Below are positions 7,673 through 27,254 of a stretch of 51,223 nucleotides of DNA, one piece after another. Numbering within the stretch: the first letter of the stretch is position 1; the number at the start of each line of letters is the position of its first letter. The stretch covers positions 1 to 51,223 of the forward strand of contig JAAXJD010000042.1 of assembly GCA_012270005.1 (NCBI GenBank), in the 5' to 3' direction. The notes under the pieces are model-generated. The model saw only the letters and a list, made by a program, of their open reading frames with translations. It was not told the DNA's origin and searched no databases. This DNA is from Flavobacterium sp. Its GTDB lineage: Bacteria > Bacteroidota > Bacteroidia > Flavobacteriales > Flavobacteriaceae. The position numbers and the translations under genes are program-made.

Positions 7673-7735
7673 AGTAGAAATTTGGGCGTAAATTAAGTAA
7701 AAAATTTTAACATATCGTTACAACTAAATGACTAA

Positions 7736-7762
7736 ATAAAAAAGGCCACCCGTAGGCAGCCT
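7736..7762 (-). terminator. terminator of the ATP synthase operon after atpG
   Basis: On the minus strand AGGCTGCC pairs with GGTGGCCT (two G-U pairs) around a TACG loop, followed by a T run. It lies 26 bases past the atpG stop. Confidence 0.78.
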
Positions 7763-7787
7763 CTTCATTATGTTTGTTTTGTATATA

Positions 7788-8654: not shown

Positions 8655-8675
8655 TTTATCAATGTAATAATGAAA

Positions 8676-8713
8676 CAATTAATCAATGTAACAACTGCTA
8701 CACTGATTAATTG
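8676..8713 (-). repeat. inverted repeat in the atpA-atpG spacer
   Basis: CAATTAATCA (8676-8685) is the perfect inverted complement of TGATTAATTG (8704-8713), with an 18-base loop. A ten-base direct repeat, ATCAATGTAA, also occurs at 8659-8668 and 8683-8692. There is no U-tract, so it is not a normal terminator; it could affect mRNA stability or be a degenerate intergenic repeat. Confidence 0.5.
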
Positions 8714-8726
8714 CTAAATTAATTTT

Positions 8727-10301: not shown

Positions 10302-10362
10302 CTGTATAATTAAGTTTAATTACCTGTTTTATGAACTACTCTAAATAATAGCCTGGTTATAA

Positions 10363-10890: not shown

Positions 10891-10900
10891 ACGGGTGAAA

Positions 10901-11401: not shown

Positions 11402-11450
11402 ATATTTTTATTACTGGTATTGTTGTTGTTTTTCTAATTAGCTTTAAAAC

Positions 11451-11479
11451 AACACCTGCAACCAACCGTTGCAGGTGTT
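11451..11479 (-). promoter_or_regulatory. strong hairpin in the atpE-atpF spacer, possible attenuator or stabiliser
   Basis: Perfect 11-base stem AACACCTGCAA/TTGCAGGTGTT with a seven-base loop, right after the atpE stop in transcription order. Only a short T tract follows on the minus strand, so partial termination or 3'-end protection of the atpB-atpE transcript is more likely than full termination. This would fit the need for many c subunits per complex, but the role is inference. Confidence 0.6.
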
Positions 11480-11486
11480 TGTTTAA

Positions 11487-11681
11487 TTATTTTCCTAGGA
11501 TTAGAGCACCGAATGCAAGACCTTCAAGAAGTGCGCCGATGATGATCATTGCAGTCTGGATTTTACCAGCAGCCTCTGGCTGACGGGCAATAGCATCCAT
11601 TGCAGAACCACCAATTTTACCTAAACCAAGACCGGCACCTATTACAATAAGACCGGCTCCAACTAGACCTGGAATTTCCAT
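11487..11681 (-). CDS. atpE: F0 ATP synthase subunit c
   Basis: A 64-residue proteolipid with two membrane helices joined by the polar loop ARQPE. The proton-binding carboxylate is Glu53 in GALLEGLAF. At the positions where sodium-dependent rings have Gln in helix 1 and Ser/Thr after the Glu, this protein has Leu and Gly, so it should be proton-coupled. The chain is short but normal for Bacteroidota. It lies between atpB and atpF and is followed by the spacer hairpin. Confidence 0.97.
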   Translation of the reverse strand: MEIPGLVGAGLIVIGAGLGLGKIGGSAMDAIARQPEAAGKIQTAMIIIGALLEGLAFGALILGK

Positions 11682-11736
11682 GATATATAATTAATTAAAT
11701 TAATGTTCTATTTTAAATTAGTTGTTTTCTCAAAAA

Positions 11737-12963: not shown

Positions 12964-13003
12964 CTTATTAACTATCTTAATTTTACAGTCCTCAAATTTT
13001 GCG

Positions 13004-13032
13004 CAAAGGTACGCTTTAATTTAATATATCAA
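13004..13032 (-). promoter_or_regulatory. promoter of the atpB operon
   Basis: On the minus strand TTG (13032-13030), then an 18-base spacer, then TACCTTTG (13011-13004). This is an excellent match to the Bacteroidota pattern TTG-N17-23-TAnnTTTG. It lies in the 115-base gap before atpB and would allow the ATPase genes to be expressed apart from the upstream porW-bactofilin genes. Confidence 0.75.
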
Positions 13033-13078
13033 TGTTGAAAATCTACTTTTTTCGAGAATTTTCAGCCTTTGGAAAAAA

Positions 13079-13474
13079 TCATTGTTTTTTGTTTAAGAGA
13101 ACCGTTGTAAAATAGGCCTCCAACATTAAAAATAACATAAAAATAACAAAAATGTTGACTTTCTCTGTAGGGGCTTCAATCGTTTTCGATAAAACAGGCC
13201 TGATATACAAATAGCCCGCTACAACCTGTAAGGTGGTTAAGAATAGGAAAATATACCCTGTTTGCCCGGGATTTTTTTTGGATATAAAATGCAATACAAA
13301 TAATATTGCTGCACAAACGGCATAAAAGAAAAGTACTGTTACATACACAGGATAAACAAAATCAGCACTTTGCGCTTTTAAATCAGGCAACTGAAACAGT
13401 AACACGTTGGTAATTAGAAATACACAGGCAAGGCCCGAAACAATAGCAAAGGTTTTAAAAAAGCTTTTATCCAT
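13079..13474 (-). CDS. small four-helix membrane protein upstream of atpB, possibly DUF6168
   Basis: A 131-residue protein with four predicted membrane helices (about 10-30, 40-62, 72-92 and 107-127) and basic ends. It stands where many ATP synthase operons carry atpI, just after the AtpZ-like gene (its start abuts that gene's stop). From memory it resembles the Flavobacteriaceae family called DUF6168, which is often found at this place. A role in assembly of the ATP synthase or in ion supply is inference from position only. Confidence 0.65.
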   Translation of the reverse strand: MDKSFFKTFAIVSGLACVFLITNVLLFQLPDLKAQSADFVYPVYVTVLFFYAVCAAILFVLHFISKKNPGQTGYIFLFLTTLQVVAGYLYIRPVLSKTIEAPTEKVNIFVIFMLFLMLEAYFTTVLLNKKQ

Positions 13475-14097: not shown

Positions 14098-16812
14098 TTA
14101 CTTTACAGGCTGGTACTGCCCAAAGTTTTTCTTTATTTGTATTACCTTATAATCCTCAGCACTTATAATGGTAGGCACCTGTGCTATTTTATATTCTTTG
14201 TAATCCCTTAGTATGGTGGCCACATCATTAGCGGCAAGCTTGTTTATAAGGCCGTGGATAACCACTATATTTTCGTTAACCGTATATATGTCGTTACTTA
14301 CGGTAATATTATTGTTATTGTTGTCTTTTATAAACTGCTGAATGGTTTTTATAAGAGTTGCAATTTTAGGGTCGTTAGCCTCAAACTTAAAAATGATTTT
14401 AAAGCTGGTGGGCGCCGCGCCAAAGGCTACTTTTTCCAGTGCCGGTATGTCTTTTTTAAGCAGGGCATCGGCCTCCTTACCTTCTTTTGCGTTAGCATAG
14501 GTAAGGGCTACATAATTAAGCGCTTTTCTATACTCTTCTACACCCTGGAGCCTTCCTGCAAGCCTGGCTTTTAGAAGCTCCAACTTTGGTAGTATATCTT
14601 CCCCTTCATAGGTATCTATATATTGGCCAATGTTTTCGTACACCTCGCGAATATCGCCCTTACGGTACTCATCGTATAATTTTTTATACACCGCCTCCGG
14701 GCTTCCGGCAAACAGTTCTTCCGGGTTAGGGTTTTTAATGATTGCCGCATAACGGGTATCCGGGTATTGTGAAAGTATGCGTTGCTTATACACTTCTGCC
14801 TTTGCAGGATCCAGCGTTTGGTATATACGATACAAATTGTAAAGAGCCGGCGGCACAAGGCGCTCCTCCGGATTATACGTCAGCAGCTTTTCCAGCTTAT
14901 CGGCAGCACGGTTATACTCTTTAAATTTATCCTTGTAAATGGCGCCTAGCTGAAAGTACGCATAATTGCGGTCTTTGGCAAGGCTGTCTAATACCTTTTG
15001 CGACTGCGGAAGCTGCCCTATGTAAAACTCAGGGTCGTAACGCGGTTTCAGCGGCTTGTCTTTTTTGTTATCTTTACCCGAAGCCGTACCATTGTTATCT
15101 GCGTCTTCCAGGTCTGCAGCGCTAACATCTGAACCTGCGCCACCAGACTTCATTTCAGAAAGTACCCTCCAGTTATCATCAAGCGGCCTTTTGCCCCACT
15201 TGGCTGCAAACGAAGCTTTACCCGAACTTACATTAGCATCGTTGTAAAAATAGAACGGACCCGATGCCGCACCACCTGCGCTTCTGGCTACGCCACTACT
15301 TTTAGGGCTATTACTGGCAAAAACCGAAGATGCCTCGCGATTCCTTGCCATTTCGGCAGCAGATATGTTGCCTTTGTTAGCGGCAAAAGCATTTTTAGCG
15401 TCCGGGGCATCTTGCCCCATAGGATCATCGCCTGCTGCATTAGCCGCACGGTTCTCTTGCTTACGGAGTTCAAGCTCTGCCTTTTTACGGGCTTCCTCGT
15501 CTTGTTTTTTTAGTTTTTCGATATAGTCATTATAGTATGCCACTCGCTTTTCGGGCGAAAGCCCTGCCACATATAAAATACTGTCGTTAGTATTAGCTAT
15601 GTTTTCGTATTTAATAACATCTTCAAGGTTATCGCGTTTCTTTTTAATGGCTTTATATTCGCGGGTGCGGAAATCCATATTTACCAGTGTACTATCGTAG
15701 TACTTGCCCGCCACAAGATACTTGGCCTGCTTAAAGTTTATCTCGGCTATGTTTCGGTAATTACTGGCAGTAAGGTATTTGTCCGCGCCTTTTTTCTTTA
15801 TGGATACATTATAGTACTTAACCGCGTTTTTAGTATTGCCCTGGCGGTCATAGAACAAACCTACCTGATGGTTAATGATATCAAGGAATGGCCTGTTTTC
15901 TCTATCGGCAAGCATTTTACGGTATTTTTCCATAAAGGCAAGGGTATCGCCACCTTTGTGGTTAAACATACCCGCCTGCATGGCATGTGCCTGCACGGTG
16001 TATATGCGCGGCGACTTACGCTTCATGTCTATCACCTTCTGGAAATAGGCAAAAGCGCTGTCGGGCTTATCCATTTTACCGTAAAGCTGCCCGGTAATAA
16101 AATAATAACGGGCTCTCTTTTCTTTATCGCGGCTGGATTTAGCTGCCTCTTTAAGTACGGTTGCAGCACTGTCTTTATACTCTTCGTTTATGTAAGCCTG
16201 GGCCAGTATGGCATTAGCATCGCTATAAATTTGCCTGTCCATAACCTCCTTTTTTTCTTTAAGGAGCTGTTTAAGGTTTTTAATGGCTACACCAGTGTTA
16301 TCCAGCCTTATGTTGGTTTTTTCGCGCCATACTTTTACCTCATCTATGGCACTGCTCTTAGGGTATTTGTATAACACATAGTTAAACGCCTCCATAGCCG
16401 GAATAAAACGGTTATCGTAGTAGCGCGCTTCGCCCAGTAACAGGTAGGCTTCATCCATTTGCGGATTACGCTCCTGCCCGCCTATGTCCATAGAGTGTTT
16501 TTGTATGGCTTTAACGGCCTTTGTTTCGGCACGTTCTATGTTAGCATTACGGCGGTCAGTGGGTTCCATTTCTTCAGGGGGCCGCTGCATACGTTCTACG
16601 GGGAGCACGTCCCAGTAGTTGTCTTTAAGATTGGTTTTAAGCTCCTTAACACCTGCCACAAGCGCATTGTTACCATTATACATAACGTTGTATTTGGTAG
16701 ACATGGCATGGTATTTACGGTTTATAAATTTGTCTTTTTTTGTAGAGCAGCCTATGGCAAAAATAGCCGCCCCGAAAAACAAAATATATTTTGAGTAACT
16801 GGTTTTCAACAC
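14098..16812 (-). CDS. porW: type IX secretion / gliding lipoprotein PorW (SprE)
   Basis: A 904-residue protein with a lipoprotein signal (FAIGC, Cys22) followed by a region of TPR-like helical repeats (about 100-420; e.g. EAYLLLGEARYYDNRFIPAMEAF), a low-complexity charged segment (about 420-590) and further helical repeats in the C-terminal half. This layout, together with the INRKYHAMSTKYNVMYNG start of the mature chain, matches PorW/SprE. That lipoprotein is needed for T9SS secretion and gliding and is thought to bridge the inner-membrane motor and the outer-membrane translocon. The 1549-residue T9SS cargo in this window is a plausible client. It is the first gene of the minus-strand run leading into the ATP synthase genes. 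Confidence 0.88.
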   Translation of the reverse strand: MLKTSYSKYILFFGAAIFAIGCSTKKDKFINRKYHAMSTKYNVMYNGNNALVAGVKELKTNLKDNYWDVLPVERMQRPPEEMEPTDRRNANIERAETKAVKAIQKHSMDIGGQERNPQMDEAYLLLGEARYYDNRFIPAMEAFNYVLYKYPKSSAIDEVKVWREKTNIRLDNTGVAIKNLKQLLKEKKEVMDRQIYSDANAILAQAYINEEYKDSAATVLKEAAKSSRDKEKRARYYFITGQLYGKMDKPDSAFAYFQKVIDMKRKSPRIYTVQAHAMQAGMFNHKGGDTLAFMEKYRKMLADRENRPFLDIINHQVGLFYDRQGNTKNAVKYYNVSIKKKGADKYLTASNYRNIAEINFKQAKYLVAGKYYDSTLVNMDFRTREYKAIKKKRDNLEDVIKYENIANTNDSILYVAGLSPEKRVAYYNDYIEKLKKQDEEARKKAELELRKQENRAANAAGDDPMGQDAPDAKNAFAANKGNISAAEMARNREASSVFASNSPKSSGVARSAGGAASGPFYFYNDANVSSGKASFAAKWGKRPLDDNWRVLSEMKSGGAGSDVSAADLEDADNNGTASGKDNKKDKPLKPRYDPEFYIGQLPQSQKVLDSLAKDRNYAYFQLGAIYKDKFKEYNRAADKLEKLLTYNPEERLVPPALYNLYRIYQTLDPAKAEVYKQRILSQYPDTRYAAIIKNPNPEELFAGSPEAVYKKLYDEYRKGDIREVYENIGQYIDTYEGEDILPKLELLKARLAGRLQGVEEYRKALNYVALTYANAKEGKEADALLKKDIPALEKVAFGAAPTSFKIIFKFEANDPKIATLIKTIQQFIKDNNNNNITVSNDIYTVNENIVVIHGLINKLAANDVATILRDYKEYKIAQVPTIISAEDYKVIQIKKNFGQYQPVK

Positions 16813-16901: not shown

Positions 16902-16934
16902 TAAAAAAAATTCCCCGCCACAGGGCAGGGAATT
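16902..16934 (-). terminator. terminator of the PadR-array-ABC operon
   Basis: On the minus strand AATTCCCTGCC pairs with GGCGGGGAATT (11 bases, one G-U pair, loop CTGT), followed by a run of T. It begins six bases after the ABC ATPase stop and closes the operon that starts at padR. Confidence 0.88.
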
Positions 16935-16940
16935 AACTTT

Positions 16941-17636
16941 TTATACTGCAAAAAACGCTTCCAGTTCCTCCAGCGTTTCTGCCGATGTATACAGGTCTTT
17001 TACCACGTGTCCTTTGTGCATGGCCACTATGCGGTTACTCACCTCTGTAGTATGCGCCAGGTCATGGCTGCTTACCAGTATGGTTTTGGTTTTATCTTCG
17101 GCAAGGTCTTTTATAATTTTCTTTAGCCTAAACTGCGTGGTAGGGTCCAGGTTTGCAAACGGCTCATCGAGTATTATAACATCAGGATTACCTATAAGGG
17201 TAGCTATAATGCCCACCTTTTTTTGGTTACCCTTACTCAGGTCGCGAAGGTATTTCTTTTTGCCCAATATTTCATCGTTAAAAAAATCAGTGTGCTTAGC
17301 CAGCAGCTCATTTACCGATGCTTTGTTTTGCCCGCGAAGTTCGCCTATAAAATAAAAGTACTCTTCGGCGGTAAGGTACCCTATAAGGAAGCTTTCGTCC
17401 AGGAACGCAGCGGTAAGGGGTTTCCAGTCTTCGCTTTTGTTTACCTGTATGCCGTTAATTTCTACATGCCCGGTGCTGGGCTCTATAAGATCCAGCAGCA
17501 AGCTGAACAGGGTGGTTTTACCGGCACCGTTATTACCTACCAGACCAAAGCTTTCGCCTTTGTTAATGGTAAGGTTTGGTATGTTTAGCACTACTGTGCC
17601 GTTATATGCTTTTTTAAGGTCTTGTATCTGTATCAT
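16941..17636 (-). CDS. ABC transporter ATP-binding protein
   Basis: A 231-residue cytoplasmic ATPase partner of the permease encoded just upstream. Motifs: Walker A GNNGAGKTT (34-42), signature LSKGNQK (133-139), Walker B VIILDEP (153-159), D-loop ANLDP, H-loop His191 in VSSHDL. The position of the usual Q-loop glutamine reads AAFLDESFL, with no obvious Gln, which is seen in some exporter ATPases. It starts 25 bases after the permease stop, and a terminator follows directly. The GNQKK form of the signature is common in export-type and antibiotic-resistance-like ABC ATPases. The substrate is unknown. Confidence 0.93.
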   Translation of the reverse strand: MIQIQDLKKAYNGTVVLNIPNLTINKGESFGLVGNNGAGKTTLFSLLLDLIEPSTGHVEINGIQVNKSEDWKPLTAAFLDESFLIGYLTAEEYFYFIGELRGQNKASVNELLAKHTDFFNDEILGKKKYLRDLSKGNQKKVGIIATLIGNPDVIILDEPFANLDPTTQFRLKKIIKDLAEDKTKTILVSSHDLAHTTEVSNRIVAMHKGHVVKDLYTSAETLEELEAFFAV

Positions 17637-17661
17637 GGTTGATGAAGCGTTGTATTAGTAA

Positions 17662-19134
17662 TTAGTTCTTTTGTTTGTAAGCCGCTATGGTATCGTACTT
17701 TTCTGACTTATAAATGCGCTCTATGGCCTTAAAGGCTGCCTTGCGGAATATAAGCCCCAATAATCCCGCAGCTGTTACAAATATAAAGCCGTAAAGCGGG
17801 CTTATAAGCTTGGCGCCCAGCGTGTACAATAGCATAGGCAGCAACAGTTTAGGTAATGATATTAAAAAGGTTTTTATGTTAAATGCCTGCTTATTACCAA
17901 AAGCCTGCTTGGCACTGGCCAGGTCTATAGGCGTTTTTACATAGGCTCCGCCCAAAAGTACTAAAAGCGAATTAACACCTATATTAAACACAGCGCCAGA
18001 TAGTATCATAAGGTAAATTTCTACCCCGTAGTACAAATAAAACGAACAGATAAGGGTACTAAATGCCACGCCTACCACCATAAGCCACCATTTACTGGCT
18101 ATGTATTGGCTATACGGAATGTTTTGGCTCATCATTAGCGGGTAATAAGAGCTGTCCCAGCTGGGCACAAACTGCCCGAAGGTCATCATAAAACCACCGG
18201 TTACAAATATAGAGGCAAACATTTTCATGGGGGTATTGTCATAAGCCTCTATACCGCCACTGTAAAATAATATGCCGTAAAAAATAAATATGACACTCAT
18301 TATAACCGTAGTCTTGCTGCGCTTGTTTCTAAGGATTAGCCTTAGATCATTTTTAAGGAAAGTACCCATGGTACCAAAACGATTAAGGAACGTATATTCG
18401 CGCCCGTCGGCAATTTCAGACTTTGATTTAAGGCCGGTATCCAGGTAAAGTTTTTTGCTGAAAAACTTATGGCTGTACCAAAATAATCCCGCAAATATCC
18501 CTGCCGGAACCAGTAAGGCAAAGTAGGTGCTGTACAGGCTATGGAACAATACCCCGGTGATAAGGGTAACATCGAAATAACCAAAGTAGTGCGATGCTCC
18601 CAGAGCGCCAAGTATACCTACGAAGATGATAAAGATAAAATCATTATCGCCCATAAGCAGGTTTGCGAGGTTGTTTATGTATACTATAAGCCACAAGCCC
18701 AGCCACCAGAACACAACCCCCACTGGATCGTACCCCTCTATGAGCAATACAATATTAAAGGGAACCAACAGAAATACGTGCAGCAGGCAGAAAAACGACA
18801 GAAACGTTTTGCCTAACACAAAGTTTATAACTGTGCTCCGCTTTATGGGCAGCGGCAGCAACGGCCGTGTGTTAAGTACAGGTACTTTTTGAAGCAATGC
18901 CCGTATTACCATATCGGCAAGGAAATAATAAATAAGGTATTTACTTACTACCACTAAAGGATCCTGGTGAAGTTCTTCTTTAATGCCATAGTATGCACCG
19001 GCACTAAGAAACAGGAACATGATGCTGTAAATTACTGCCAAAAAGCCCAGTATAATCTTAATGACCATGTTAACGCCGAAGGAAGCCGACCTTGTAAAGG
19101 ACTTCCACTCTAGCCAGAGGAATTTTTTAAACAT
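17662..19134 (-). CDS. DUF5687-type ABC transporter permease
   Basis: A 490-residue integral membrane protein with about ten to twelve hydrophobic segments. The start MFKKFLWLEWKSFTRS and the later block FGTMGTFLKNDLRLILRNKRSKT fit the DUF5687 family, known in Bacteroidota as the membrane partner of a single ABC ATPase. It lies between the last of the ten array genes (47-base gap) and the ATPase gene, all on the minus strand. Together the two proteins should form an ABC-2-like exporter. The substrate is not known for this family as far as I can tell. Confidence 0.85.
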   Translation of the reverse strand: MFKKFLWLEWKSFTRSASFGVNMVIKIILGFLAVIYSIMFLFLSAGAYYGIKEELHQDPLVVVSKYLIYYFLADMVIRALLQKVPVLNTRPLLPLPIKRSTVINFVLGKTFLSFFCLLHVFLLVPFNIVLLIEGYDPVGVVFWWLGLWLIVYINNLANLLMGDNDFIFIIFVGILGALGASHYFGYFDVTLITGVLFHSLYSTYFALLVPAGIFAGLFWYSHKFFSKKLYLDTGLKSKSEIADGREYTFLNRFGTMGTFLKNDLRLILRNKRSKTTVIMSVIFIFYGILFYSGGIEAYDNTPMKMFASIFVTGGFMMTFGQFVPSWDSSYYPLMMSQNIPYSQYIASKWWLMVVGVAFSTLICSFYLYYGVEIYLMILSGAVFNIGVNSLLVLLGGAYVKTPIDLASAKQAFGNKQAFNIKTFLISLPKLLLPMLLYTLGAKLISPLYGFIFVTAAGLLGLIFRKAAFKAIERIYKSEKYDTIAAYKQKN

Positions 19135-19181
19135 AATTGTGTGACGGTTTTTAAAGATTAGTGTAACTACATTACAGAACG

Positions 19182-19883
19182 TTACACTTTTTGAGGGATA
19201 TTTTCAAAAGCATACTCCGGATAGGTTTGCATCAAATGCTCCTCAGACCGTGATGCCACAGTAAAAAGCATAACATAATAATACAGCACCATTCCGGTAA
19301 AGTAAGCTGCATTTACCCAGACCAATACCACCGGAACCCTGTACTCAAAATAAAAATGCACCAGTTGAAAAGGCAGCATTGTGGGCGCTCCTAAACCTGC
19401 GAAGTTAAAAATAACATGTTCAAACAGCCATTTTTTACCCGTAGCACGTACTTTTTTACGATAGCGCCGCCACAGTTGTATTGCACGCGTTAAAAACAGC
19501 AACAAAGCGGCTGCAGGCAACAGGCTCATCCAAATTTCATTTTCTGTAAAAAGAAACAGCACTGCGCTGAAAAACACCAACGTAAACAGGATGCGAGGTA
19601 CTTGTAAAAAATCTTTGTAATAACGCCATACCAAGCTATTGTATTTTTTGGTAAGCGATAGTTGGCGCTGTTCGGCAAGAGTGGTAAACCCAAAGATGCC
19701 AAACTTTTTAAACTCATCTTGTAATGCGTCCTCAAACGGAATGTTGGGTTCTGTAACCCAGCGTTGCTCTATGGCATTTGCAAGGTGGTCTACAAGTTCT
19801 TTTTGCAGTTCATAATATTCTATGTAATGCTTTTTTGTTATAGCATATAATGCGTATATCTTTTTTGCGGTAATCTTTTTCAT
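19182..19883 (-). CDS. array membrane protein A1, long type
   Basis: A 233-residue protein, tenth in transcription order of the tandem array. An N-terminal helical domain (1-90) carries YYELQKELVDHLANAIE with the invariant Asp32-His33 pair and NIPFEDAL...FGIFGF. Four predicted membrane helices follow, in two hairpins separated by TGKKWLFEHVIF, and the C-terminal tail SEEHLMQTYPEY has eight extra residues compared with the sister proteins. The layout recalls the DUF1700/HAAS-type membrane proteins often encoded next to PadR regulators, but I see no clear match and the function is unknown. It is closest to A3, with which it shares EPN(I/V)PFEDAL and the FKKFG block. Confidence 0.75.
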   Translation of the reverse strand: MKKITAKKIYALYAITKKHYIEYYELQKELVDHLANAIEQRWVTEPNIPFEDALQDEFKKFGIFGFTTLAEQRQLSLTKKYNSLVWRYYKDFLQVPRILFTLVFFSAVLFLFTENEIWMSLLPAAALLLFLTRAIQLWRRYRKKVRATGKKWLFEHVIFNFAGLGAPTMLPFQLVHFYFEYRVPVVLVWVNAAYFTGMVLYYYVMLFTVASRSEEHLMQTYPEYAFENIPQKV

Positions 19884-19891
19884 AGCAAGGT

Positions 19892-20587
19892 TTATTTTCC
19901 GTATTCTGGATAAACTTCTTTAAGATAGGCTTCGGCGCGGTTGGGTATTATTATCAGTTTTACATATACGTACAGCATTAGTAAGGTGTACAGTATCGAT
20001 TCGAACAGTAGCAATATGGGTGGATATTCATCCCGCCACATTTGCCAGGCAAGATTAATAAAAAAGACCATGTACCCAAACCCATCTCGGGCATATATCA
20101 TTTCTTCCATAAGCCAGTGATGTCCATGCGGACTAGTCGCATATCTTCTGCTTAAACTTCTGACTCTTAAAATCATAATGAATAGAGATACTACAAACAA
20201 CAAAATATAGGCCTTGGGCCACCACAATAACAACCGGAATACCGCATAGCCAAAAGCCGCCACGCCTATTAGCTGTGGTAATTTAAAAAACGAGAAAAAA
20301 TAACCTCTAAACATTTTACGGTATCTTTTGCGCAAGGCAGCCTGGCGTTTAAGCATTATCTTCATAAACCCGAACTTACCGCCAAACTTTTCTTCTTCTA
20401 TTGCAAGAGCGTCGGCAAAAGATATATCGGGGTTTTGTTCCCAGATTTGTTCTATGGCATTGGCTATATGGTCGGCAAGTTCGCACTGTACGTCGTAATG
20501 TTTTATGTTCCTGCTTTTCAGGAAATAAAACAATGCTTCCACTTGTGTAGCCGATACTGTTTTTCTTGGTTTTGTATTGTTCTCCAT
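19892..20587 (-). CDS. array membrane protein A2, long type
   Basis: A 231-residue member of the array and the most divergent of the long type. It has a polar start (MENNTKPRKT) about seven residues longer than its sisters, the core HYDVQCELADHIANAIE with Asp39-His40, PDISFADAL and KFGFMK. Four membrane helices follow, with HHWLMEEMIY in the middle linker (the sisters have G(R/K)KWLFEE) and a tail AEAYLKEVYPEYGK. It starts 4 bases after the A3 stop and ends 8 bases before A1, so translation is likely coupled. Function unknown. Confidence 0.75.
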   Translation of the reverse strand: MENNTKPRKTVSATQVEALFYFLKSRNIKHYDVQCELADHIANAIEQIWEQNPDISFADALAIEEEKFGGKFGFMKIMLKRQAALRKRYRKMFRGYFFSFFKLPQLIGVAAFGYAVFRLLLWWPKAYILLFVVSLFIMILRVRSLSRRYATSPHGHHWLMEEMIYARDGFGYMVFFINLAWQMWRDEYPPILLLFESILYTLLMLYVYVKLIIIPNRAEAYLKEVYPEYGK

Positions 20588-20591
20588 AGTA

Positions 20592-21272
20592 TTACACCAT
20601 TTTGTACTCCGGATAGGTTTCTATTAAATATTGTTCTGCTTTTGATGGGATGATAAACAGTACTATATAATTATGCAATAACAACACTACACTAAGCACG
20701 GCTATAAGCCACTGCCCGGCTACGCTTTGGGTATTGTACATCATTTGCCCAAACTGAAACCAAAACCCCGCCAGGGCAGAGAACGTAACACCCCTAAAAA
20801 TCATTTCCTCAAACATCCACTTACGGCCTGTTTCCTTAGCTTTTTGGTTAAATGCTTTTATGTTTACGCTCATGCGGTACAGGGAATATACCTGCATACT
20901 TATGTACAGGGCCAACATTACATATACGTTATATGCCAAAATAAGCTTTGCACAGACTATAAGTGCCAGGGTAAGCAGCGACCTTGGTACAGTAAAAAAA
21001 GTTTTAAAATACCCCCACATCAGTTTTTGGTACCTTTTACCAAGCGCTTTGCTGCGCTGTTCTACAACATCGCTAAACCCGAAGACGCCAAACTTTTTAA
21101 ACGCAGCCTGCAGTGCATCTTCAAATGGCACATTGGGTTCATTAACCCAGCGCGTTTCTATGGCATTGGCAAGGTGGTCTACCAGTTCGGTTTGCAGGTC
21201 GTAATGCTCTACAAAGTGCTGCCTGGTAAAGGTGTACAGTTGGTCTATTTGTTCGGCTGTTAGTTGCTTCAT
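20592..21272 (-). CDS. array membrane protein A3, long type
   Basis: A 226-residue member of the array. Residues 1-95 form the helical domain: LTAEQIDQLYTF, HYDLQTELVDHLANAIE (Asp32-His33), EPNVPFEDAL and KKFGVFGF. Four membrane helices follow (about 98-115, 117-132, 161-178 and 190-212), with the linker TGRKWMFEEMIF and the tail AEQYLIETYPEYKMV. The leader before its ATG (ATTATAATTCATCTTC read on the plus strand) is almost the same as the one before A4, so even the ribosome-binding region has been copied. Function unknown; it probably acts at the inner membrane with the helical domain in the cytoplasm (inference). Confidence 0.77.
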   Translation of the reverse strand: MKQLTAEQIDQLYTFTRQHFVEHYDLQTELVDHLANAIETRWVNEPNVPFEDALQAAFKKFGVFGFSDVVEQRSKALGKRYQKLMWGYFKTFFTVPRSLLTLALIVCAKLILAYNVYVMLALYISMQVYSLYRMSVNIKAFNQKAKETGRKWMFEEMIFRGVTFSALAGFWFQFGQMMYNTQSVAGQWLIAVLSVVLLLHNYIVLFIIPSKAEQYLIETYPEYKMV

Positions 21273-21290
21273 TATAATTCATCTTCATGG

Positions 21291-21983
21291 TTAAACCAAA
21301 TCATATTCCGGATACGTATCCCTTAAGTATTCTTCTGCTCTATAAGGTATTACATAAAGTACAATATAGTTGTGCAAAAAAACCAGGGTAAATATCCCGG
21401 ACAGCACCCATTGTGCTACAACCCCCGGGCCGTTAAAGTTATCTGTAAACTGAAATGAGATACCGGTAATAAAAAGAGTCGCCGGCATAGTGGTGCTTTT
21501 ATAAACCAACTGTTCCAGCAGCCATACTTTTTCTTTTTGTTTCAAACGTTTTTCAAAATGTTTTTTTGTAAGGTTAAATTTTGCTAAACACATAAGTTGC
21601 AATGCAAGTACTGAGAGCTGAAAAATAGGTACTTCAGTATCAATCAAAAAAATACTGTGCAGCGAGAAAAACAAGGCAACAGTAACAATGAGCTTCGGGA
21701 ATGTAAAAAAGGAAACGAAACAACTTCCTACAAACCTCATATGCTTTTTTAAAAGCGCTTTTGTTCGGGCGGCAACCAATGTTGTAAAACTATTTTTTTC
21801 GAACCCCGAATACGCAAAACTAAGCGCGTCTTCGAAATCCGGGTTTTGGTTATACATCCACTGGCTTTCTATATGATTCGCCAGATGATCTACCAGCTCG
21901 GTTTGCAGGTCGTAATAGTGTACGCCGTTATTTTGTACAAAAAGGTACAGTTGTTCTATTTGTTCGGCTGATAATTGCTTCAT
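21291..21983 (-). CDS. array membrane protein A4, long type
   Basis: A 230-residue member of the array. The N-terminal domain reads LSAEQIEQLYLFVQNNG, YYDLQTELVDHLANHIES (Asp32-His33) and NPDFEDALSFAYSGF. It is almost identical to A5 up to about residue 42, and there the DNA itself differs at only one of 116 bases. The membrane half is clearly diverged: the linker reads KEKVWLLEQLVY and lacks the TGRK residues. The tail AEEYLRDTYPEYDLV is identical to that of A5. Both 18-base gaps around the gene share the same sequence. Confidence 0.77.
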   Translation of the reverse strand: MKQLSAEQIEQLYLFVQNNGVHYYDLQTELVDHLANHIESQWMYNQNPDFEDALSFAYSGFEKNSFTTLVAARTKALLKKHMRFVGSCFVSFFTFPKLIVTVALFFSLHSIFLIDTEVPIFQLSVLALQLMCLAKFNLTKKHFEKRLKQKEKVWLLEQLVYKSTTMPATLFITGISFQFTDNFNGPGVVAQWVLSGIFTLVFLHNYIVLYVIPYRAEEYLRDTYPEYDLV

Positions 21984-22001
21984 TATAATTCATCTTCGTG
22001 G

Positions 22002-22700
22002 TTAAACCAAATCATATTCAGGGTAGGTATCCCTTAAGTATTCTTCTGCCCTGGACGGAATCATAAAAATCCCTATGTAACTGTTTAACGTAAGCACCGT
22101 AACCACTAACGGGATACCATAGGTAAAGAAATCAACAGTATACTTCATAAAACAGAGCCTTACTATCTGGAAAGAAAATCCCATGTATGCCAATACAATT
22201 GCACTACTGTATATGAGTTCTTCAAAAAGCCACTTGCGCCCGGTTATCTCTGCTTTTTTCTTTATTTTATTCCGTTGATAAAGGACCCACGCCAAAACAG
22301 CCATTTGCATAGCGGCAAACAGCACCCCAAAAATCTCTTTATCAAACCTGAACAAATAATACCACCCAAATAATAACGCTACGGTAACCAGGATAGCCGG
22401 AGGAGTAAAAAAGGCTATAAACCCTTTTGTTACCAACTTTACATAACGCTTACCCAATGCCTCTTTCCTGAGCTTCACCAAGGATGGAAAACCATCATCA
22501 GAAAATCCAGAATAGGCAAAACTAAGGGCAGCTTCAAAGTCAGGATTCTGATTACTTTTCCACTGGCTTTCTATATGATTCGCCAGATGATCTACCAGCT
22601 CGGTTTGCAGGTCGTAATAGTGTACGCCGTTATTTTGTACAAAAAGGTACAGTTGGTCTATTTGTTCGGCTGATAGCTTATTATGCTGCATAACGGGCAT
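22002..22700 (-). CDS. array membrane protein A5, long type
   Basis: A 232-residue protein, the first long-type gene in transcription order. The helical domain carries YYDLQTELVDHLANHIES (Asp37-His38) and NPDFEAALSFAYSGF. Four membrane helices follow, with the linker TGRKWLFEELIYS and the tail AEEYLRDTYPEYDLV. The start could be ATG 22700 or ATG 22691 (MQHNKLSAEQ), because the sister proteins begin nearer the second. With the first, the gene overlaps B1 by 20 bases. It marks the switch in the array from the short type upstream to the long type downstream. Confidence 0.76.
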   Translation of the reverse strand: MPVMQHNKLSAEQIDQLYLFVQNNGVHYYDLQTELVDHLANHIESQWKSNQNPDFEAALSFAYSGFSDDGFPSLVKLRKEALGKRYVKLVTKGFIAFFTPPAILVTVALLFGWYYLFRFDKEIFGVLFAAMQMAVLAWVLYQRNKIKKKAEITGRKWLFEELIYSSAIVLAYMGFSFQIVRLCFMKYTVDFFTYGIPLVVTVLTLNSYIGIFMIPSRAEEYLRDTYPEYDLV

Positions 22701-23304
22701 TATATTTTTTAGTTAACACAATATAGTTTACAAAAACAGCTAGTATAAAAACCAGGTAAAAAGAGTTAATCAATGCCGCCAACAAATAGGGAGATGTTAT
22801 TCGTAACGGATTCACTACAATTTGGAATACATATATAAACAAGCAGGGTACAGTAAGGGCTTTAAATGCGACCGAATAACCTCTGTCCGCAGTAATCCTC
22901 CCTTTTATAGTTATAAATACGGCTGTAAGAAACAAACCCGAAAAAACAATATACAAGGTCTCCCCGACCCGCTCTACACCATATAATGAAACCGCTTTAT
23001 ATGAAATAAAACTCAAAACCAAAAACAGTAATGCAGCATACCAACTTAACAGTACTGAAAAGAAATGCTTGACTGCGCGCCTACCAGCTTTCCATCCAAA
23101 TGCCTTGCCTTGAAGCAATAGTTGGCTTTTGTTCTGGGCCATATATCGTTCAAAATTCTCCATAAAATCACCTTCCTGTTCCTCAAGGGCACAGGCTATG
23201 TGGTCTGTCATTTCATACCGTATGTCTACATACTCTACCCCCGAATTTTTAAGGTAGGTATCTATAAAATGTAATTGGTCTGTGGTTAGTTTGTTAAGTT
23301 GCAT
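22681..23304 (-). CDS. array membrane protein B1, short type
   Basis: A 207-residue member of the array. The N-terminal domain reads LTTDQLHFIDTYLKNSG, YVDIRYEMTDHIACALEE (Asp34-His35), QEGDF and a basic GRRAVKHF segment; four to five membrane helices and a tail TKKYNARYAA follow. The DNA for the first 44 residues is the same as in B2 except for one base in 119, while the membrane half has little in common with B2. Its stop lies inside the A5 start and its start overlaps the B2 stop by 11 bases. Function unknown. Confidence 0.76.
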   Translation of the reverse strand: MQLNKLTTDQLHFIDTYLKNSGVEYVDIRYEMTDHIACALEEQEGDFMENFERYMAQNKSQLLLQGKAFGWKAGRRAVKHFFSVLLSWYAALLFLVLSFISYKAVSLYGVERVGETLYIVFSGLFLTAVFITIKGRITADRGYSVAFKALTVPCLFIYVFQIVVNPLRITSPYLLAALINSFYLVFILAVFVNYIVLTKKYNARYAA

Positions 23305-23896
23305 AATTTAGTTTGTATTTTTTATGTACTCTCAAAGCTGTAACACTAAGGGCACATCCCATTGTAATTACTACGGAATACACAGTAAACACTATCCATA
23401 AATTCTTGATGAAGCGTTCGGGTATAATTATAATATTGCCATAATATAAAATAAACCCACATACACCATACAACTTAGAGCTAACGGAAAACTTACTTTT
23501 GTCGGATACCTTTGCCAGCCCCACAAAATATGCAGCTACAAATATTAGTCGCATATAACTGGCTGCATCCGAAAGATTAGTACCTGAAAAGAGATAGTGG
23601 TTTACAAAAACCAATACCATTAACACAGGAAATACCCACGGCTGGCGCAGCGTTTTCAATAGTTCTGACCCGGCGCGCCTTAATGCAAGCCGTTTAAACC
23701 TACTGTTCCCAGACAGCAGGCTGAGTTTATTCTGTATCATATACTCCCTAAAGCGCTCACTAAAATCGCCCTCCTGTTCCTCAAGGGCACAGGCTATGTG
23801 GTCTGTCATTTCATACCGTATGTCTACATACTCTACCCCCGAATTTTTAAGGTAGGTATCTATAAAATGCAATTGGTCTGTGGTTAGTTTAGGCAT
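23294..23896 (-). CDS. array membrane protein B2, short type
   Basis: A 200-residue member of the array with the N-terminal block LTTDQLHFIDTYLKNSG...YVDIRYEMTDHIACALEE (Asp32-His33), then RFKRLALRRAGSELLK, a basic helix shared in form with B4 and B5, four to five membrane helices and the tail HKKYKLNYAT. It is translated overlapping both neighbours (11 bases with B1, 8 bases with B3). The very high DNA identity to B1 in the N-terminal part only suggests gene conversion. Function unknown. Confidence 0.76.
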   Translation of the reverse strand: MPKLTTDQLHFIDTYLKNSGVEYVDIRYEMTDHIACALEEQEGDFSERFREYMIQNKLSLLSGNSRFKRLALRRAGSELLKTLRQPWVFPVLMVLVFVNHYLFSGTNLSDAASYMRLIFVAAYFVGLAKVSDKSKFSVSSKLYGVCGFILYYGNIIIIPERFIKNLWIVFTVYSVVITMGCALSVTALRVHKKYKLNYAT

Positions 23897-24515
23897 AATA
23901 TTTACGATTGTGTTTTCGGTTTATCTGCCACATAAGCAATACTATATTTGCTATTAAAGCCATACTAACGGCACTGCTTGCATTAAAGATTAATGTATCT
24001 GGTGTTATAAACCGGCTTTGCTGGCTAAACCATAGTAGAGGTATCACAAAATAAAAACCAGTTTGTGTTATAAGCTTTTTATAGTCGGGTAAGGCTTTTG
24101 CCCCTCTCTTAAAACCCATGGCCCACATACCAAATAACATTCCTATTACAAACACGGCTTCAGCCATATATTTAGTAACTTCATTTTGGTACGCCGCATA
24201 AAATAACCCAAAAAAAAGAATTAACTGCAATAGCCCTTTTGGGGAGGCTAATCCTTTTACCATTTCTTTACGGTAACCTCTTTCGCGTAGGCGCACCTGT
24301 TCCTTAGCAGCCGTAATCATAGCCACCATATTATGGGAATGGATATAAGCGTTTAAACGTTCCTGAAAGTTTTCGGGAGTTACTGTAGTGTCTTGCTCCA
24401 GGGCGCAAATAACATGGTCTGCCAGTTCATGGCAAATATCGTCGTACACTATACCCTGTTGCTTTATATAGCGGTATAGTACATTAACCGGAACCTGAGT
24501 TGTTACTTGATTCAT
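23889..24515 (-). CDS. array membrane protein B3, short type
   Basis: A 208-residue member of the array and the most divergent of the short type. The helical core YDDICHELADHVICALE keeps Asp33-His34, but the LTTDQLHFIDTYLKNSG start of its sisters is replaced by VPVNVLYRYIKQQG. A basic segment (KEQVRLRERGYRKEMVK), four to five membrane helices and the tail NRKHNRKYYA follow. It overlaps the B4 stop by the four-base ATGA type junction and B2 by 8 bases, which indicates coupled translation. Function unknown. Confidence 0.75.
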   Translation of the reverse strand: MNQVTTQVPVNVLYRYIKQQGIVYDDICHELADHVICALEQDTTVTPENFQERLNAYIHSHNMVAMITAAKEQVRLRERGYRKEMVKGLASPKGLLQLILFFGLFYAAYQNEVTKYMAEAVFVIGMLFGMWAMGFKRGAKALPDYKKLITQTGFYFVIPLLWFSQQSRFITPDTLIFNASSAVSMALIANIVLLMWQINRKHNRKYYA

Positions 24516-25120
24516 GATAATATTACATTATAACGTGCCTTTTGTAATTTTGCAGCACTGTAAAAAGCAAAGCAAACACTGCCTATAAGCGCATAACCCG
24601 CAATTATGAGATGCACATAAACCCCCGAAGAAATAGCGGAAAGCTTAAGCAAACCCATGCAAAACGCGGTAATGCTATAGTCTATTAGCCTGTAACGCTC
24701 CCTAAACGAAAACACGGGCCCCTTGCCCTGTACTACAGGCCTGAACGATACGCCCAAAAAGGATGCAAGAACAACAAACATAAGTGTCATCAAAGCCGTG
24801 TTTTGTGATGTAAAATACAGTAATACTTCTGTAGTGGCTATAAGCCCTGCAATTACGTTCCAAAATCCCGGTTTACACACCTCTATCATTACTGCCTTAA
24901 AGTTTCTGCGCAGGGCTATCCGTTCAAAATGGCGATTCATGTGTTTTATCTGCTGCTTTATGGCCGGCAGATACTCCTGTAAGTCTACTTCTTTACCCGA
25001 CGCCTCTATTCCAGAGGCGATGTGGTCTGTAAGTTCGGCCCTTATATCCATATAAAATACCCCTGAATTTTTCAGGTAGGTGTCTATGAATTTTATTTGG
25101 TTTGCAGTTAACTTAGGCAT
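24512..25120 (-). CDS. array membrane protein B4, short type
   Basis: A 202-residue member of the array with LTANQIKFIDTYLKNSG and YMDIRAELTDHIASGIEA (Asp32-His33), a helix RHFERIALRRNFKAVMIE, four to five membrane helices and the tail KLQKARYNVILS, which departs from the KxYxxxYA ending of most short-type sisters. It overlaps B5 by 8 bases and B3 by 4 bases. The N-terminal protein sequence is near that of B2, but the DNA is clearly more diverged than in the B1/B2 pair. Function unknown. Confidence 0.75.
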   Translation of the reverse strand: MPKLTANQIKFIDTYLKNSGVFYMDIRAELTDHIASGIEASGKEVDLQEYLPAIKQQIKHMNRHFERIALRRNFKAVMIEVCKPGFWNVIAGLIATTEVLLYFTSQNTALMTLMFVVLASFLGVSFRPVVQGKGPVFSFRERYRLIDYSITAFCMGLLKLSAISSGVYVHLIIAGYALIGSVCFAFYSAAKLQKARYNVILS

Positions 25121-25718
25121 AGTATATACGTGTATATTTGTGGTAAAGCGCCCTTGTAGTAAAATTTATGTTTATCATAAAAGCCGCAACGGCAGCATAA
25201 TACACAATCAGGAAATCTGGATTTGGAATTCGGCTTAGCATCAGTATACTGGGGTAAAGCAATAGAGAGGGCAGCACAGCTATACCGCTATCAAACGAAA
25301 AATTTTGCTTTTTCAACATAATACTCTTAATACCCGGATAACACCCTATACAAGTGCATGCATTAAAAATCAGGAACATAAAAATTCCCATGTCATCTTG
25401 ATTGGCAAATAGTTGTATAACCTTACCAAGGCTAATTATGCCTGCAAAAACTAATAGTATTCTCCACGAAAACAGGTTAGCAAAAAGCAGCCTCATCCCC
25501 CTGGCGGCACCCATACGCTTAAATTTTCGGTTCAGCGTTTGCAGTTCGGCTTTATTATCCTGTATATAGCACGTAAGGTTTTCTTTAAAATCGCCTTCCT
25601 GCTTTTCCAGCACAGAAGCCACATGGTCTGTGATTTCAATTAAAATATCGTAGTGTATCACACGGGTAGCACCCAAGGCATTTTGTACCTCTTTTATTTG
25701 TTCGGTTGTAAGCTTCAT
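25113..25718 (-). CDS. array membrane protein B5, short type, first after padR
   Basis: A 201-residue protein and the first of the ten array genes in transcription order, starting 4 bases after the padR stop. The helical core HYDILIEITDHVASVLEK carries Asp31-His32, followed by QEGDF, KFKRMGAARGMRLLF, four to five membrane helices and the tail HKYTRIYYA. The position directly after padR is where PadR partners with a helical domain plus membrane segments are commonly encoded in Bacillota and Bacteroidota. B5 may therefore resemble the ancestral single partner from which the array grew (inference). Confidence 0.77.
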   Translation of the reverse strand: MKLTTEQIKEVQNALGATRVIHYDILIEITDHVASVLEKQEGDFKENLTCYIQDNKAELQTLNRKFKRMGAARGMRLLFANLFSWRILLVFAGIISLGKVIQLFANQDDMGIFMFLIFNACTCIGCYPGIKSIMLKKQNFSFDSGIAVLPSLLLYPSILMLSRIPNPDFLIVYYAAVAAFMININFTTRALYHKYTRIYYA

Positions 25719-25722
25719 ACGT

Positions 25723-26070
25723 TTAAAATTGAAGGTCTGGGTTAGGCGCAGGGTTTACCAGCGACTGCATGTTTTTAATAAATTCCTGCAGTTCTTCCAG
25801 GCGGTTTACGGTTTCTTTTTCGCCCTGCTCTGTAAGCTTGTAATACTTACGCAGGCGGTTATCTACACGTTCTACCTCCACATCCAGCAGGCCATCGGCC
25901 TCCAGCTTATGTAATGCAGGGTACAGCGCACCCTCGGTTATGTTTAGTTCACCGCGGGTTATCAGCTTTACCTTTTGGGTAATTTCATAACCATACATGC
26001 GGCCGTTTTCTTCCAGCAGCTTCATTATTATAGTATTAAGGCTACCTTTATACAGTTGGGAGTTTTTCAT
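25723..26070 (-). CDS. PadR-family transcriptional regulator
   Basis: A 115-residue winged-helix regulator. It shows the PadR signature: LYKGSLNTIIMKLLEENGRMYGYEI (the MYGYEI turn is diagnostic), ITEGALYPALHKLEADGLL as the recognition helix and wing entry, and RKYYKLTEQGEKE, then a C-terminal dimerisation helix. PadR proteins usually repress their own operon, often together with a transporter, and are relieved by a ligand. The gene leads the minus-strand operon with ten membrane proteins and an ABC exporter. Its promoter is overlapped by inverted repeats, consistent with autorepression. Confidence 0.93.
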   Translation of the reverse strand: MKNSQLYKGSLNTIIMKLLEENGRMYGYEITQKVKLITRGELNITEGALYPALHKLEADGLLDVEVERVDNRLRKYYKLTEQGEKETVNRLEELQEFIKNMQSLVNPAPNPDLQF

Positions 26071-26074
26071 GTAC

Positions 26075-26118
26075 TACAAATTTGTACAGCAAATGTATAC
26101 ATAAAAATCTTATGTATA
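26075..26118. promoter_or_regulatory. probable PadR operator cluster
   Basis: Three overlapping or adjacent inverted repeats lie just upstream of padR: perfect palindrome TACAAATTTGTA (26075-26086), perfect palindrome ATGTATACAT (26093-26102), and TATACATAA (26096-26104) with its exact complement TTATGTATA (26110-26118) around a five-base spacer. ATGT...ACAT half sites are typical of PadR operators. They overlap the padR -7 element and lie about 60 bases upstream of the divergent -7 element, so both directions could be controlled. Confidence 0.65.
26090..26097 (-). promoter_or_regulatory. -7 element of the padR-array operon
   Basis: TACATTTG on the minus strand fits TAnnTTTG, 20 bases before the padR ATG, and overlaps the ATGTATACAT palindrome. 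No clear -33 TTTG is present at the right distance, which would fit a weak promoter or one whose upstream part has been given over to the operator. Confidence 0.5.
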
Positions 26119-26145
26119 ACTTTCTTAGGTATATAAATTTTAACC

Positions 26146-26201: not shown

Positions 26202-27254
26202 ATGTCAACATTCTATTCGTTAAAAATAAAAGACATCCGCAGGGAAACCCCTCATGCGGTTTCTATAGCCTTTGAGGTTCCGCAAGACCTTTCGGCAGCA
26301 TATAACTTTACAGCCGGCCAGTACATTAACATAAAAACCCAGTACGAAGGGCAAGAAGTGCGCAAAGCCTACTCTATTTGTTCTGCACCCGGCAGCGGCG
26401 AACTTCGCGTAGCCATTAAAGCGGTTAAGAACGGTGGGTTTTCAGCTTTTGCCAATGAAAAACTGGCTGTAGGAGACAGCATGGAGGTAGGTGTGCCCGA
26501 AGGTAAATTTATCTTTGAACCGAAATCCGACAGGCAGCGTAACTATGCAGCGTTTGCTGCCGGCAGCGGTATTACCCCTGTTATGAGCATACTGCAGTCT
26601 GTACTTATACACGAGCCCGACAGTACTTTTGTACTGGTATACGGTAATAAAAGCCCTGAGGATACTATTTTCCACGACCAGCTGCACCAGCTGCAGGAAA
26701 AATACCTCGGCAGGTTTTTTGTACACTTTGTATACAGCCGTGCCCACGCCGGCGATGCGCTTTTTGGACGTATAGAGCGTGCCGCAGTAAACTTTGTGCT
26801 AAACAACAAGCATAAGGAAAAAGAGTTTGCCAAGTTTTACCTGTGTGGCCCGGAGGAAATGATACTTACCGTAAACGACGTGCTAAAAGAGCACAACGTT
26901 CCGGAGAAGAACATTAAGTTTGAGCTGTTTTCTACCCCCATAGCCGAGAAAAAAATAGAGGCCGACCTAAGTGGACAGACTAAGGTAACCGTACTGGTAG
27001 ACGACGAGGAAACCACCTTTTTTATGCCAAAGGAAATCACCGTACTAGACGCCGCGCTAAAACAGGGCGTAGACGCTCCATACTCTTGCCAGGGTGGTAT
27101 TTGCAGCAGCTGTGTGTGCCGTGTTAAATCAGGTTCGGCAGAAATGAAGAAAAACGCTATACTTACCGATGGTGAAATAGCCGAAGGCCTTGTACTGGCC
27201 TGCCAGGCACACCCTACATCAGAAGAACTATATGTTGATTTTGATGATGTGTAA
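26202..27254 (+). CDS. PaaE-like ferredoxin-NADP reductase with C-terminal 2Fe-2S domain
   Basis: A 350-residue flavo-iron-sulfur reductase. The FAD-binding part has RKAYS (54-58), the NAD(P)-binding part has GSGITP (121-126) and a CGPEEM motif, and the C-terminal plant-type ferredoxin domain holds Cys296, Cys301, Cys304 and Cys334 as 2Fe-2S ligands. Electrons pass from NAD(P)H through FAD to the cluster. The order matches PaaE of the phenylacetyl-CoA epoxidase, but no paaABC genes are nearby, so it more likely serves another oxygenase or desaturase. The start at 26202 (MSTFYSLKIKD) follows the promoter; the frame extends back to 26082, but those residues look like noncoding sequence. Confidence 0.88.
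   Translation: MSTFYSLKIKDIRRETPHAVSIAFEVPQDLSAAYNFTAGQYINIKTQYEGQEVRKAYSICSAPGSGELRVAIKAVKNGGFSAFANEKLAVGDSMEVGVPEGKFIFEPKSDRQRNYAAFAAGSGITPVMSILQSVLIHEPDSTFVLVYGNKSPEDTIFHDQLHQLQEKYLGRFFVHFVYSRAHAGDALFGRIERAAVNFVLNNKHKEKEFAKFYLCGPEEMILTVNDVLKEHNVPEKNIKFELFSTPIAEKKIEADLSGQTKVTVLVDDEETTFFMPKEITVLDAALKQGVDAPYSCQGGICSSCVCRVKSGSAEMKKNAILTDGEIAEGLVLACQAHPTSEELYVDFDDV

Follow-up and report, generated by a model that had tools for sequence, protein, structure and literature searches.

A 51,223-nucleotide stretch of the genome of a Flavobacterium sp. (contig JAAXJD010000042.1 of assembly GCA_012270005.1; hereafter the window) contains padR, a gene of the PadR family of regulators, followed by ten adjacent paralogous genes of membrane proteins (the array), a gene for a DUF5687 family protein that was taken as an ABC-type permease, and a gene for an ABC transporter ATPase. 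Some neighbouring copies combine near-identical N-terminal domains (N-domains) with very dissimilar membrane parts, a palindromic putative operator overlaps the promoter of padR, and, to judge from gene order in relatives, padR and the array are one module and the permease and ATPase genes another, the paralogues going with PadR and not with the transporter. The interpretation tentatively favoured here, at somewhat short of an even chance, is that the array proteins may bring many membrane inputs to one PadR repressor, extending the proposed pairing of PadR with HAAS domain proteins.

The unit occupies positions 26118-16909 of the minus strand, as delimited from open reading frames (ORFs) and profile searches (Table 1). 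The spacings among the ten array genes range from -20 to +18 nucleotides (nt), with 47 nt between the array and the permease gene and 25 nt between the permease and ATPase genes. The product of padR matches the winged-helix profile PF03551 with 71.6 bits (cut-off 27) and NCBIfam TIGR03433 with 74.4 bits, which is under the cut-off of that family (101.8), and the DUF5687 protein matches PF18940 over its full length (615 bits across residues 9-489). The gene order, the spacing and an invariant Asp-His core in all ten proteins had been described in an earlier note made from the letters of the window (the original prediction), and all three were borne out; the two subtypes, the operator at the edge of the predicted range, the identical 5' stretches and the terminator-like stem after the ATPase gene go beyond it.

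The ten array proteins are homologous and do not belong to unrelated families, an outcome against which the original prediction had been set: a hidden Markov model (HMM) built from the ten matches exactly these ten in their own genome and no others at E <= 1, and some of the genes are joined by direct repeats at the DNA level. Genes 1-5 encode proteins of 200-208 residues, and genes 6-10 encode proteins of 226-233 residues with a C-terminal YPEY. An E-x-x-D-H core is present in all ten, with E28, D31, H32 and E38 invariant; in a set of 325 sequences that includes the ten, E28, D31 and H32 are invariant in all 324 sequences covering them and E38 is conserved in 98%. AlphaFold2 models of the products of genes 8 and 4 (mean predicted local distance difference test scores 93.9 and 93.5) begin with helices at residues 6-18, 24-44 and 50-59 and at residues 6-18, 24-39 and 45-83, respectively, followed by longer helices, and for every one of the ten a simple hydropathy scan gave three or four membrane segments. 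Lys/Arg residues number 8-18 in the N-terminal part versus 0-2 in the first loop beyond it, which makes a cytoplasmic N-domain with short outer loops most likely.

The putative operator is a perfect 23-bp inverted repeat. In a scoring of 18 positions around the padR start, a site reaching at least 15/18 was found in 102 of 113 PadR-headed arrays (0.7 per 113 in shuffled sequences), and the score was no higher than 12 within the 400 nt before the permease gene at all seven permease loci without padR. The sequence TAnnTTTG, which we take to be the Bacteroidetes-type -7 promoter consensus, begins at palindrome position 19 or 21 in 68 of 104 arrays, compared with 0.8 and 0.7 after shuffling of the downstream bases; it begins at position 34 or 36 in 23 further arrays, with a second palindrome-like half lying between in the displayed examples. 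Because the conserved palindrome lies over the -7 element and is missing from the PadR-less loci, PadR very probably represses its own operon. Similar half-sites, 'ATACCTAA', are found ahead of the operator in displayed examples from other species. The palindrome of the window is the only perfect copy in its own genome (sequence 93% complete); with three mismatches allowed there are 10 matches, the perfect one included, versus 5 in a reversed control, which is little excess. A motif that had been the first operator candidate, ATGT-N2-ACAT (27 cases), was replaced by the 23-bp palindrome; of these cases, 5 are ATGTATACAT, a part of the palindrome, and the remaining 22 are ATGTNGACAT; the window's copy of the latter is nothing more than the beginning of the divergent reductase gene read in reverse (ATG TCA ACA T, 26202-26211).

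PadR heads 113 of the 116 unique arrays that remained of 137 after duplicates were removed by identity across 100 residues of the last gene. Two of the other three are extra groups in loci that have PadR (L161, L063), and at L076 no PadR was seen. A permease gene is present in the fetched stretch of 93 of the 113 PadR-headed arrays and missing from that of 20, and at L101/L159 it is divergent from padR and the array. At seven fetched loci the permease and ATPase genes occur with neither padR nor an array. The set of permease, ATPase with porW/sprE at most 400 nt downstream, and a reductase relative within the fetched stretch is found at 74 of 114 array-bearing loci and also at all seven PadR-less loci; in the two of these with gene order displayed (L209, L211), a reductase-sized gene lies divergently just before the permease gene, where the window has padR and the array. 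The 20 arrays without permease in the fetched stretch and the seven fetched permease loci without padR or array thus indicate two separate modules, and the possibility that the array is tied to the exporter was rejected on the same grounds. The suggestion in the original prediction that the ten work with one exporter holds to the extent that the window contains one PadR and one exporter, but the link is looser than was supposed.

The array genes appear to have been exchanging sequence, as far as can be judged from their DNA. Genes 4 and 5 are identical across codons 11-40, yet their membrane parts share 18% residue identity, and genes 6 and 7 are identical across codons 16-45, with membrane parts 39% identical; in trees, the N-domain of gene 4 groups with that of gene 5 (0.95) and its membrane part with that of gene 3 (0.93). 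The same pattern of near-identical N-domains with membrane parts 13-23% identical was found at loci of other species as well as in the window (genes 4/5 here, 2/3 of L116, 8/9 of L149 and 2/3 of L184). An exact run of at least 24 nt is common to 36 of 434 pairs of array mates at the same place, and 29 of these 36 are neighbours (neighbours being 213 of the 434 pairs); of 60 such runs, 49 have their midpoint within the first 200 nt, against an expectation of about 30%, and the p-value for this test ignores that the runs depend on one another. Where two N-domains are at least 75% identical, the third codon positions of their identical residues agree at 0.82 for pairs from the same array (18 pairs) versus 0.61 for pairs from different arrays (a sample of 600 out of 1,197). 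Identical silent sites in one part of a gene together with 13-23% residue identity in the other can hardly be produced by point mutation alone, but can be produced by gene conversion or cassette exchange, which suggests gene conversion between neighbouring copies in the N-domain. Whole-gene duplication followed by drift was ruled out as the sole account of pairs 4/5 and 6/7 by their silent-site-identical codons, set against the divergence of their membrane parts. Genes 2 and 3 of L101 are a near whole-gene duplicate, with a 341-nt exact run.

Arrays of this kind occur widely across Flavobacteriaceae, mostly as sets of two or three genes, and ten is extreme. The HMM of the ten is matched at E <= 1e-4 by 61 of 249 Flavobacteriaceae genomes (235 genera; own genome included), of which none but the own genome exceeded four matches, and at E <= 0.001 by 80 of 199 genomes of the genus; a broader profile is matched by 174 of 398 genomes of the genus, in a survey that scored at most seven matches per genome and cannot rank large arrays. 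Most of the named relatives belong to Flavobacterium; the others are Olleya, Mesonia, Winogradskyella, Paenimyroides and a small number of further Bacteroidota, among them Draconibacterium. The 113 unique PadR-headed arrays comprise 11 of one gene, 45 of two, 32 of three, 11 of four, 7 of five, 5 of six, one of nine and that of the window, the largest, of ten; the sample consists of the best 80 profile matches plus regions picked, many for high copy number, so that large arrays are overrepresented, and the counts omit genes shorter than 140 residues and split an array at gaps of more than 1 kb. The array of nine (L149, genome G370, 6886-13356) stands behind one PadR, with no permease in the fetched stretch, and its genes 4, 5 and 6 have exact runs of 48-51 nt in common in the N-domain. 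Shortened or split array genes stand beside intact ones at L153, L181 and L206, which suggests birth and death of copies. Of 398 genomes of the genus, 307 encode the permease; the matches listed come no closer than 60-61% identity, so that the comparison set includes no close relative of this strain.

Uniqueness to this genome is ruled out by these counts, as Flavobacterium and its relatives often have arrays of one to six genes and one other genome has nine. The impression in the original prediction of an isolated layout, like no described system, was therefore not supported, and the HAAS-PadR principle is published (PMC11237479, in the part of its text available). As for arrays of ten or more being standard and already described, the arrays proved to be common, but ten is the largest of 113 even in a sample weighted towards large ones, and a literature search over titles and abstract openings, HAAS and PadR-like systems from 2024 on included, found no title describing such arrays among those listed (10 of 21 and 8 of 14); searches for DUF5687 and for the permease prefix domain found no paper in the library searched. 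The prediction of a lineage-specific expansion fared better: the membrane parts of the five long-type proteins of the window all belong to a single clade of 19 members (support 0.90), which also includes copies from other species.

Database searches with the array proteins returned scattered weak matches, which were taken as membrane-helix look-alikes. In Pfam these differed by member for all ten (e.g. DUF6524, E = 0.0047) and were likewise scattered for 62 members of set A2 and 60 of set A3 (DUF373 in 13 of 62 of A2, best 0.00023). In NCBIfam a scan of nine of the ten and of the permease gave scattered weak matches (e.g. cytb6_f_IV, 0.00092), and A2 gave weak matches only (SLATT_4 in 11 of 62, best 0.00099; ThrP in 1 of 62, 1.3e-5). 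A PADLOC search with all ten gave two weak matches only (E 0.0044 and 0.0063). A PDB sequence search with the long-type profile returned four matches at E <= 5 (best 0.4), and Foldseek found no match in the PDB at E <= 0.001 for the models of genes 8 and 4. In a second structure search the gene 8 model matched best a designed helical filament (Z 6.7), with oxidase subunit III bundles at about 6, nearly all matches being on residues 75-226 and within the range common for helical bundles.

No match to the HAAS family (PF22564) was found for any of the ten at E <= 1, and PF22564 was absent among the best 25 of 120 families for A2 and the best 25 of 78 for A3. The GxP motif of the third HAAS helix is missing from the long-type consensus, which has FGVFGF, and from the short-type consensus, which has neither. 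The profile of permease prefix domain 1 (NCBIfam NF038403) had no match above cut-off, the best E being 0.077 (in 2 of 62 A2 members), and none in the nine window array proteins scanned. The hhalign scores of the N-domain against that prefix domain were 22.4 (long type), 19.9 (all) and 20.9 (short type), compared with 19.8, 15.9 and 16.6 for the best of 50 column shuffles, and close to the score of HAAS against the same prefix profile (23.3). The alignment is collinear, with EL-x-x-HL and then a second helix with E-A. PadR is present at 23 of 28 permease prefix loci examined (of 30 loci, two below cut-off were unused, and four of the 28, without the trimming motif, were left out of the profile); permease prefix 2 (NF038404) was found in 2 of 149 genomes. 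We take this profile evidence as suggestive: remote homology of the N-domain to permease prefix domain 1 is possible to probable though not proven, and the N-domain is perhaps a distant relative of the PadR-linked permease prefix and HAAS domains as a group.

Three groups of known systems invite comparison. In the HAAS-PadR dyad, proposed in 2024 as an alternative to two-component systems, membrane signals would reach DNA through a conformational change of the helical domain (PMC11237479, available text). Like the HAAS proteins (PF22564; DUF1700, DUF1048, DUF1129 superfamily), the array proteins have a small helical domain, often with membrane helices, and have a stand-alone PadR gene next to them (in 113 of 116 unique arrays); they differ in having no Pfam or profile-profile match and no GxP, in being present in up to ten tandem copies per PadR, and in their mosaic copies. 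Apart from this unit, the same genome encodes another PadR with a HAAS protein of about 584 residues after it (G000 C32:1271-1444; L193, L221), with 29.1 bits against a Pfam cut-off of 27, which provides a built-in HAAS-PadR control. Permease prefix domain 1 shares with the N-domain the EL-x-x-HL ... EAF pattern and the linkage to PadR and is the best remote profile match found, but it heads a long permease frame, whereas the N-domain heads a protein of 200-233 residues and the permease is a separate gene. In two genomes (G707 C1:1408624-1414063, with L245, L257 and L261; G774 C1:1495824-1501248, with L247, L255 and L260), three prefix-domain permeases follow one another on the same strand, and PadR was seen only next to the one transcribed first; independently of the array, one PadR thus goes with several prefix-domain proteins in tandem. 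The Listeria lftRS-lieAB and lltR operons, in the portions of their descriptions available, also combine a PadR regulator with a DUF1048 or DUF1700 partner, and LftR controls a multidrug-type ABC exporter; they have a single partner protein, exporter genes located elsewhere, and a partner that is dispensable for lieAB control.

The separate gene porW/sprE (14098-16812), which encodes the type IX secretion lipoprotein PorW/SprE (NF052312, E = 6.2e-233), lies downstream of the terminator-like stem. Its position just downstream of the ATPase gene is shared by most relatives that have the permease, among them the seven PadR-less loci.

Table 1. Features of the padR-array-exporter unit in the window
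Feature	Position	Strand	Basis or remark
Second, imperfect operator-like site	26111-26133	-	Genome scan; 3 mismatches, overlaps first
Putative PadR operator, perfect 23-bp inverted repeat, TATACATAA-N5-TTATGTATA	26096-26118	-	Sequence pattern
TACATTTG, Bacteroidetes-type -7 promoter element (presumed)	26090-26097	-	TAnnTTTG match; overlaps operator 3' end
padR, PadR-family regulator, 115 residues	25723-26070	-	PF03551, E = 5.4e-20
Array gene 1, short type, 201 residues	25113-25718	-	ORF, E..DH core, HMM of ten
Array gene 2, short type, 202 residues	24512-25120	-	ORF, E..DH core, HMM of ten
Array gene 3, short type, 208 residues	23889-24515	-	Membrane part clusters with that of gene 4 (0.93)
Array gene 4, short type, 200 residues	23294-23896	-	Mosaic; structure modelled
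165-nt direct repeat copy, N-domain of gene 4	23726-23890		89% identical to 23128-23292; 98-nt exact run
Array gene 5, short type, 207 residues	22681-23304	-	ORF, E..DH core
165-nt direct repeat copy, N-domain of gene 5	23128-23292		Partner of 23726-23890
Array gene 6, long type (C-terminal YPEY), 232 residues	22002-22700	-	ORF, E..DH core
199-nt direct repeat copy, N-domain of gene 6	22477-22675		86% identical to 21775-21973; 97-nt exact run
Array gene 7, long type, 230 residues	21291-21983	-	ORF, E..DH core
199-nt direct repeat copy, N-domain of gene 7	21775-21973		Third copy 21064-21262, 61%
Array gene 8, long type, 226 residues	20592-21272	-	ORF, E..DH core; structure modelled
Array gene 9, long type, 231 residues	19892-20587	-	ORF, E..DH core
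Array gene 10, long type, 233 residues	19182-19883	-	ORF, E..DH core
DUF5687 family protein, taken as ABC-type permease, 490 residues	17662-19134	-	PF18940, E = 1.8e-184
ABC transporter ATPase, 231 residues	16941-17636	-	PF00005, E = 1.5e-24
Terminator-like stem, 11 pairs and T run, closes unit	16909-16934	-	Consensus scan only

Under the sensor interpretation, PadR would bind the palindrome at 26096-26118 over its own promoter and shut off padR, the ten array genes and the permease and ATPase genes. Each array protein would direct its small helical N-domain, with the E..DH..E core, towards the cytoplasm and be anchored by about four membrane helices. By analogy with HAAS-PadR, the N-domains would be the common contact for PadR, and the divergent membrane parts would take different membrane or lipophilic inputs; occupancy of any array protein would loosen PadR from DNA, so that the operon, exporter included, would be made. 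Gene conversion between neighbours would keep the PadR-facing domains alike and the membrane parts different, and unequal recombination would alter the number of inputs. We infer the repression by PadR, the contact between N-domain and PadR, the sensing by the membrane parts and the substrate of the exporter. The original prediction had listed a set of sensors among its options, and this fits a constant N-domain with a variable membrane part.

Several results weigh against the sensor interpretation. The contact of the N-domains with PadR is a supposition, and a distance-matrix (mirror-tree) test of 64 arrays found no N-domain/PadR coupling in excess of the transporter's (partial r 0.084 with p 0.144; for a subset of 59 arrays, 0.036 with p 0.336). 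The last gene's membrane part does correlate with PadR (0.26, p 0.001), which a sensor model does not predict. In hhalign comparisons with Bacteroidota HAAS (18 loci, all with PadR; L237 was dropped, its next ORF being another protein), scores of 8-13 were no better than those of reversed controls, and the hhalign probability for the permease prefix domain was only 8-20%. Deletion of Listeria lftS (DUF1048) left the control of lieAB by LftR unchanged, and LftS was held to be independent of LftR, according to the available text of PMC4517056. Sensors made only after derepression would need basal expression. Of the 224 members of arrays of three or more, only 26 have their closest N-domain among their own array mates, and 9 their closest membrane part, so that homogenisation is episodic.

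A different and rather unlikely explanation, though the best of the competitors, is that PadR senses a drug-like ligand itself and the ten proteins are products, expressed along with the exporter once PadR releases the DNA and acting as effectors, as protectors of the membrane or in an immunity-like role. In Lactococcus, the PadR regulator LmrR of the LmrR-LmrCD system, comparable to the Listeria systems, is held to sense a drug-like ligand itself, and LftR reportedly does so too. A single PadR operator precedes all genes of the unit, membrane parts that change quickly would be in keeping with an arms race, and the lack of a co-evolution signal together with the dispensability of LftS, with or without which LftR controls its transporter, favours PadR as the ligand sensor. 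In the lltR mutant of Listeria, lmo0600 (DUF1700) and lmo0601 rise 118-fold and 107-fold (PMC6624303, available text). This explanation, however, leaves unaccounted for the constancy of a cytoplasmic N-domain with an invariant E..DH core and the association of the proteins with PadR and not with the exporter, and an immunity-like role finds just the two weak PADLOC matches.

It is improbable that each array protein is an exporter subunit pairing with the DUF5687 permease and altering its substrate range. The presence of the permease near most PadR-headed arrays (93 of 113) speaks for such subunits, as does the frequency of the long type among last genes (PEY-type in 47 of 77 last genes versus 2 of 139 others at loci L040-L119), but 20 arrays have no permease in the fetched stretch, the permease is divergent at L101/L159 and occurs elsewhere with no array, and permease and array distances are not coupled (partial r -0.007 and -0.039). 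Near-neutral birth and death, by which unequal crossing-over gains and loses copies, one or two matter and ten reflect drift, has an equally slight chance: it agrees with copy numbers from one to ten and with the shortened or split copies noted above, but not with ten window frames that are all open and keep the E..DH..E core.

The principle of PadR with a membrane partner is already known; what is new here is the conserved putative operator, the mosaic copies and the PadR linkage. The pair was proposed in 2024 as a way of bringing envelope signals to DNA, the action of the partner being still a proposal in the available text. Here the partner is multiplied up to tenfold per repressor, natural chimeras keep the front and change the membrane part, and relatives with few copies, together with loci without an array, make both the partner-PadR question and sensing by the membrane part directly testable. 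It is a possible but doubtful further step that a single factor reads a set of interchangeable membrane sensors, ten of them here and one to nine in relatives, whose factor-facing domain would be kept uniform by gene conversion and whose sensing domains would be recombined and diversified from one neighbouring gene to the next. If true, this would be a combinatorial sensing array, a constant/variable design for phosphorylation-free bacterial signalling.

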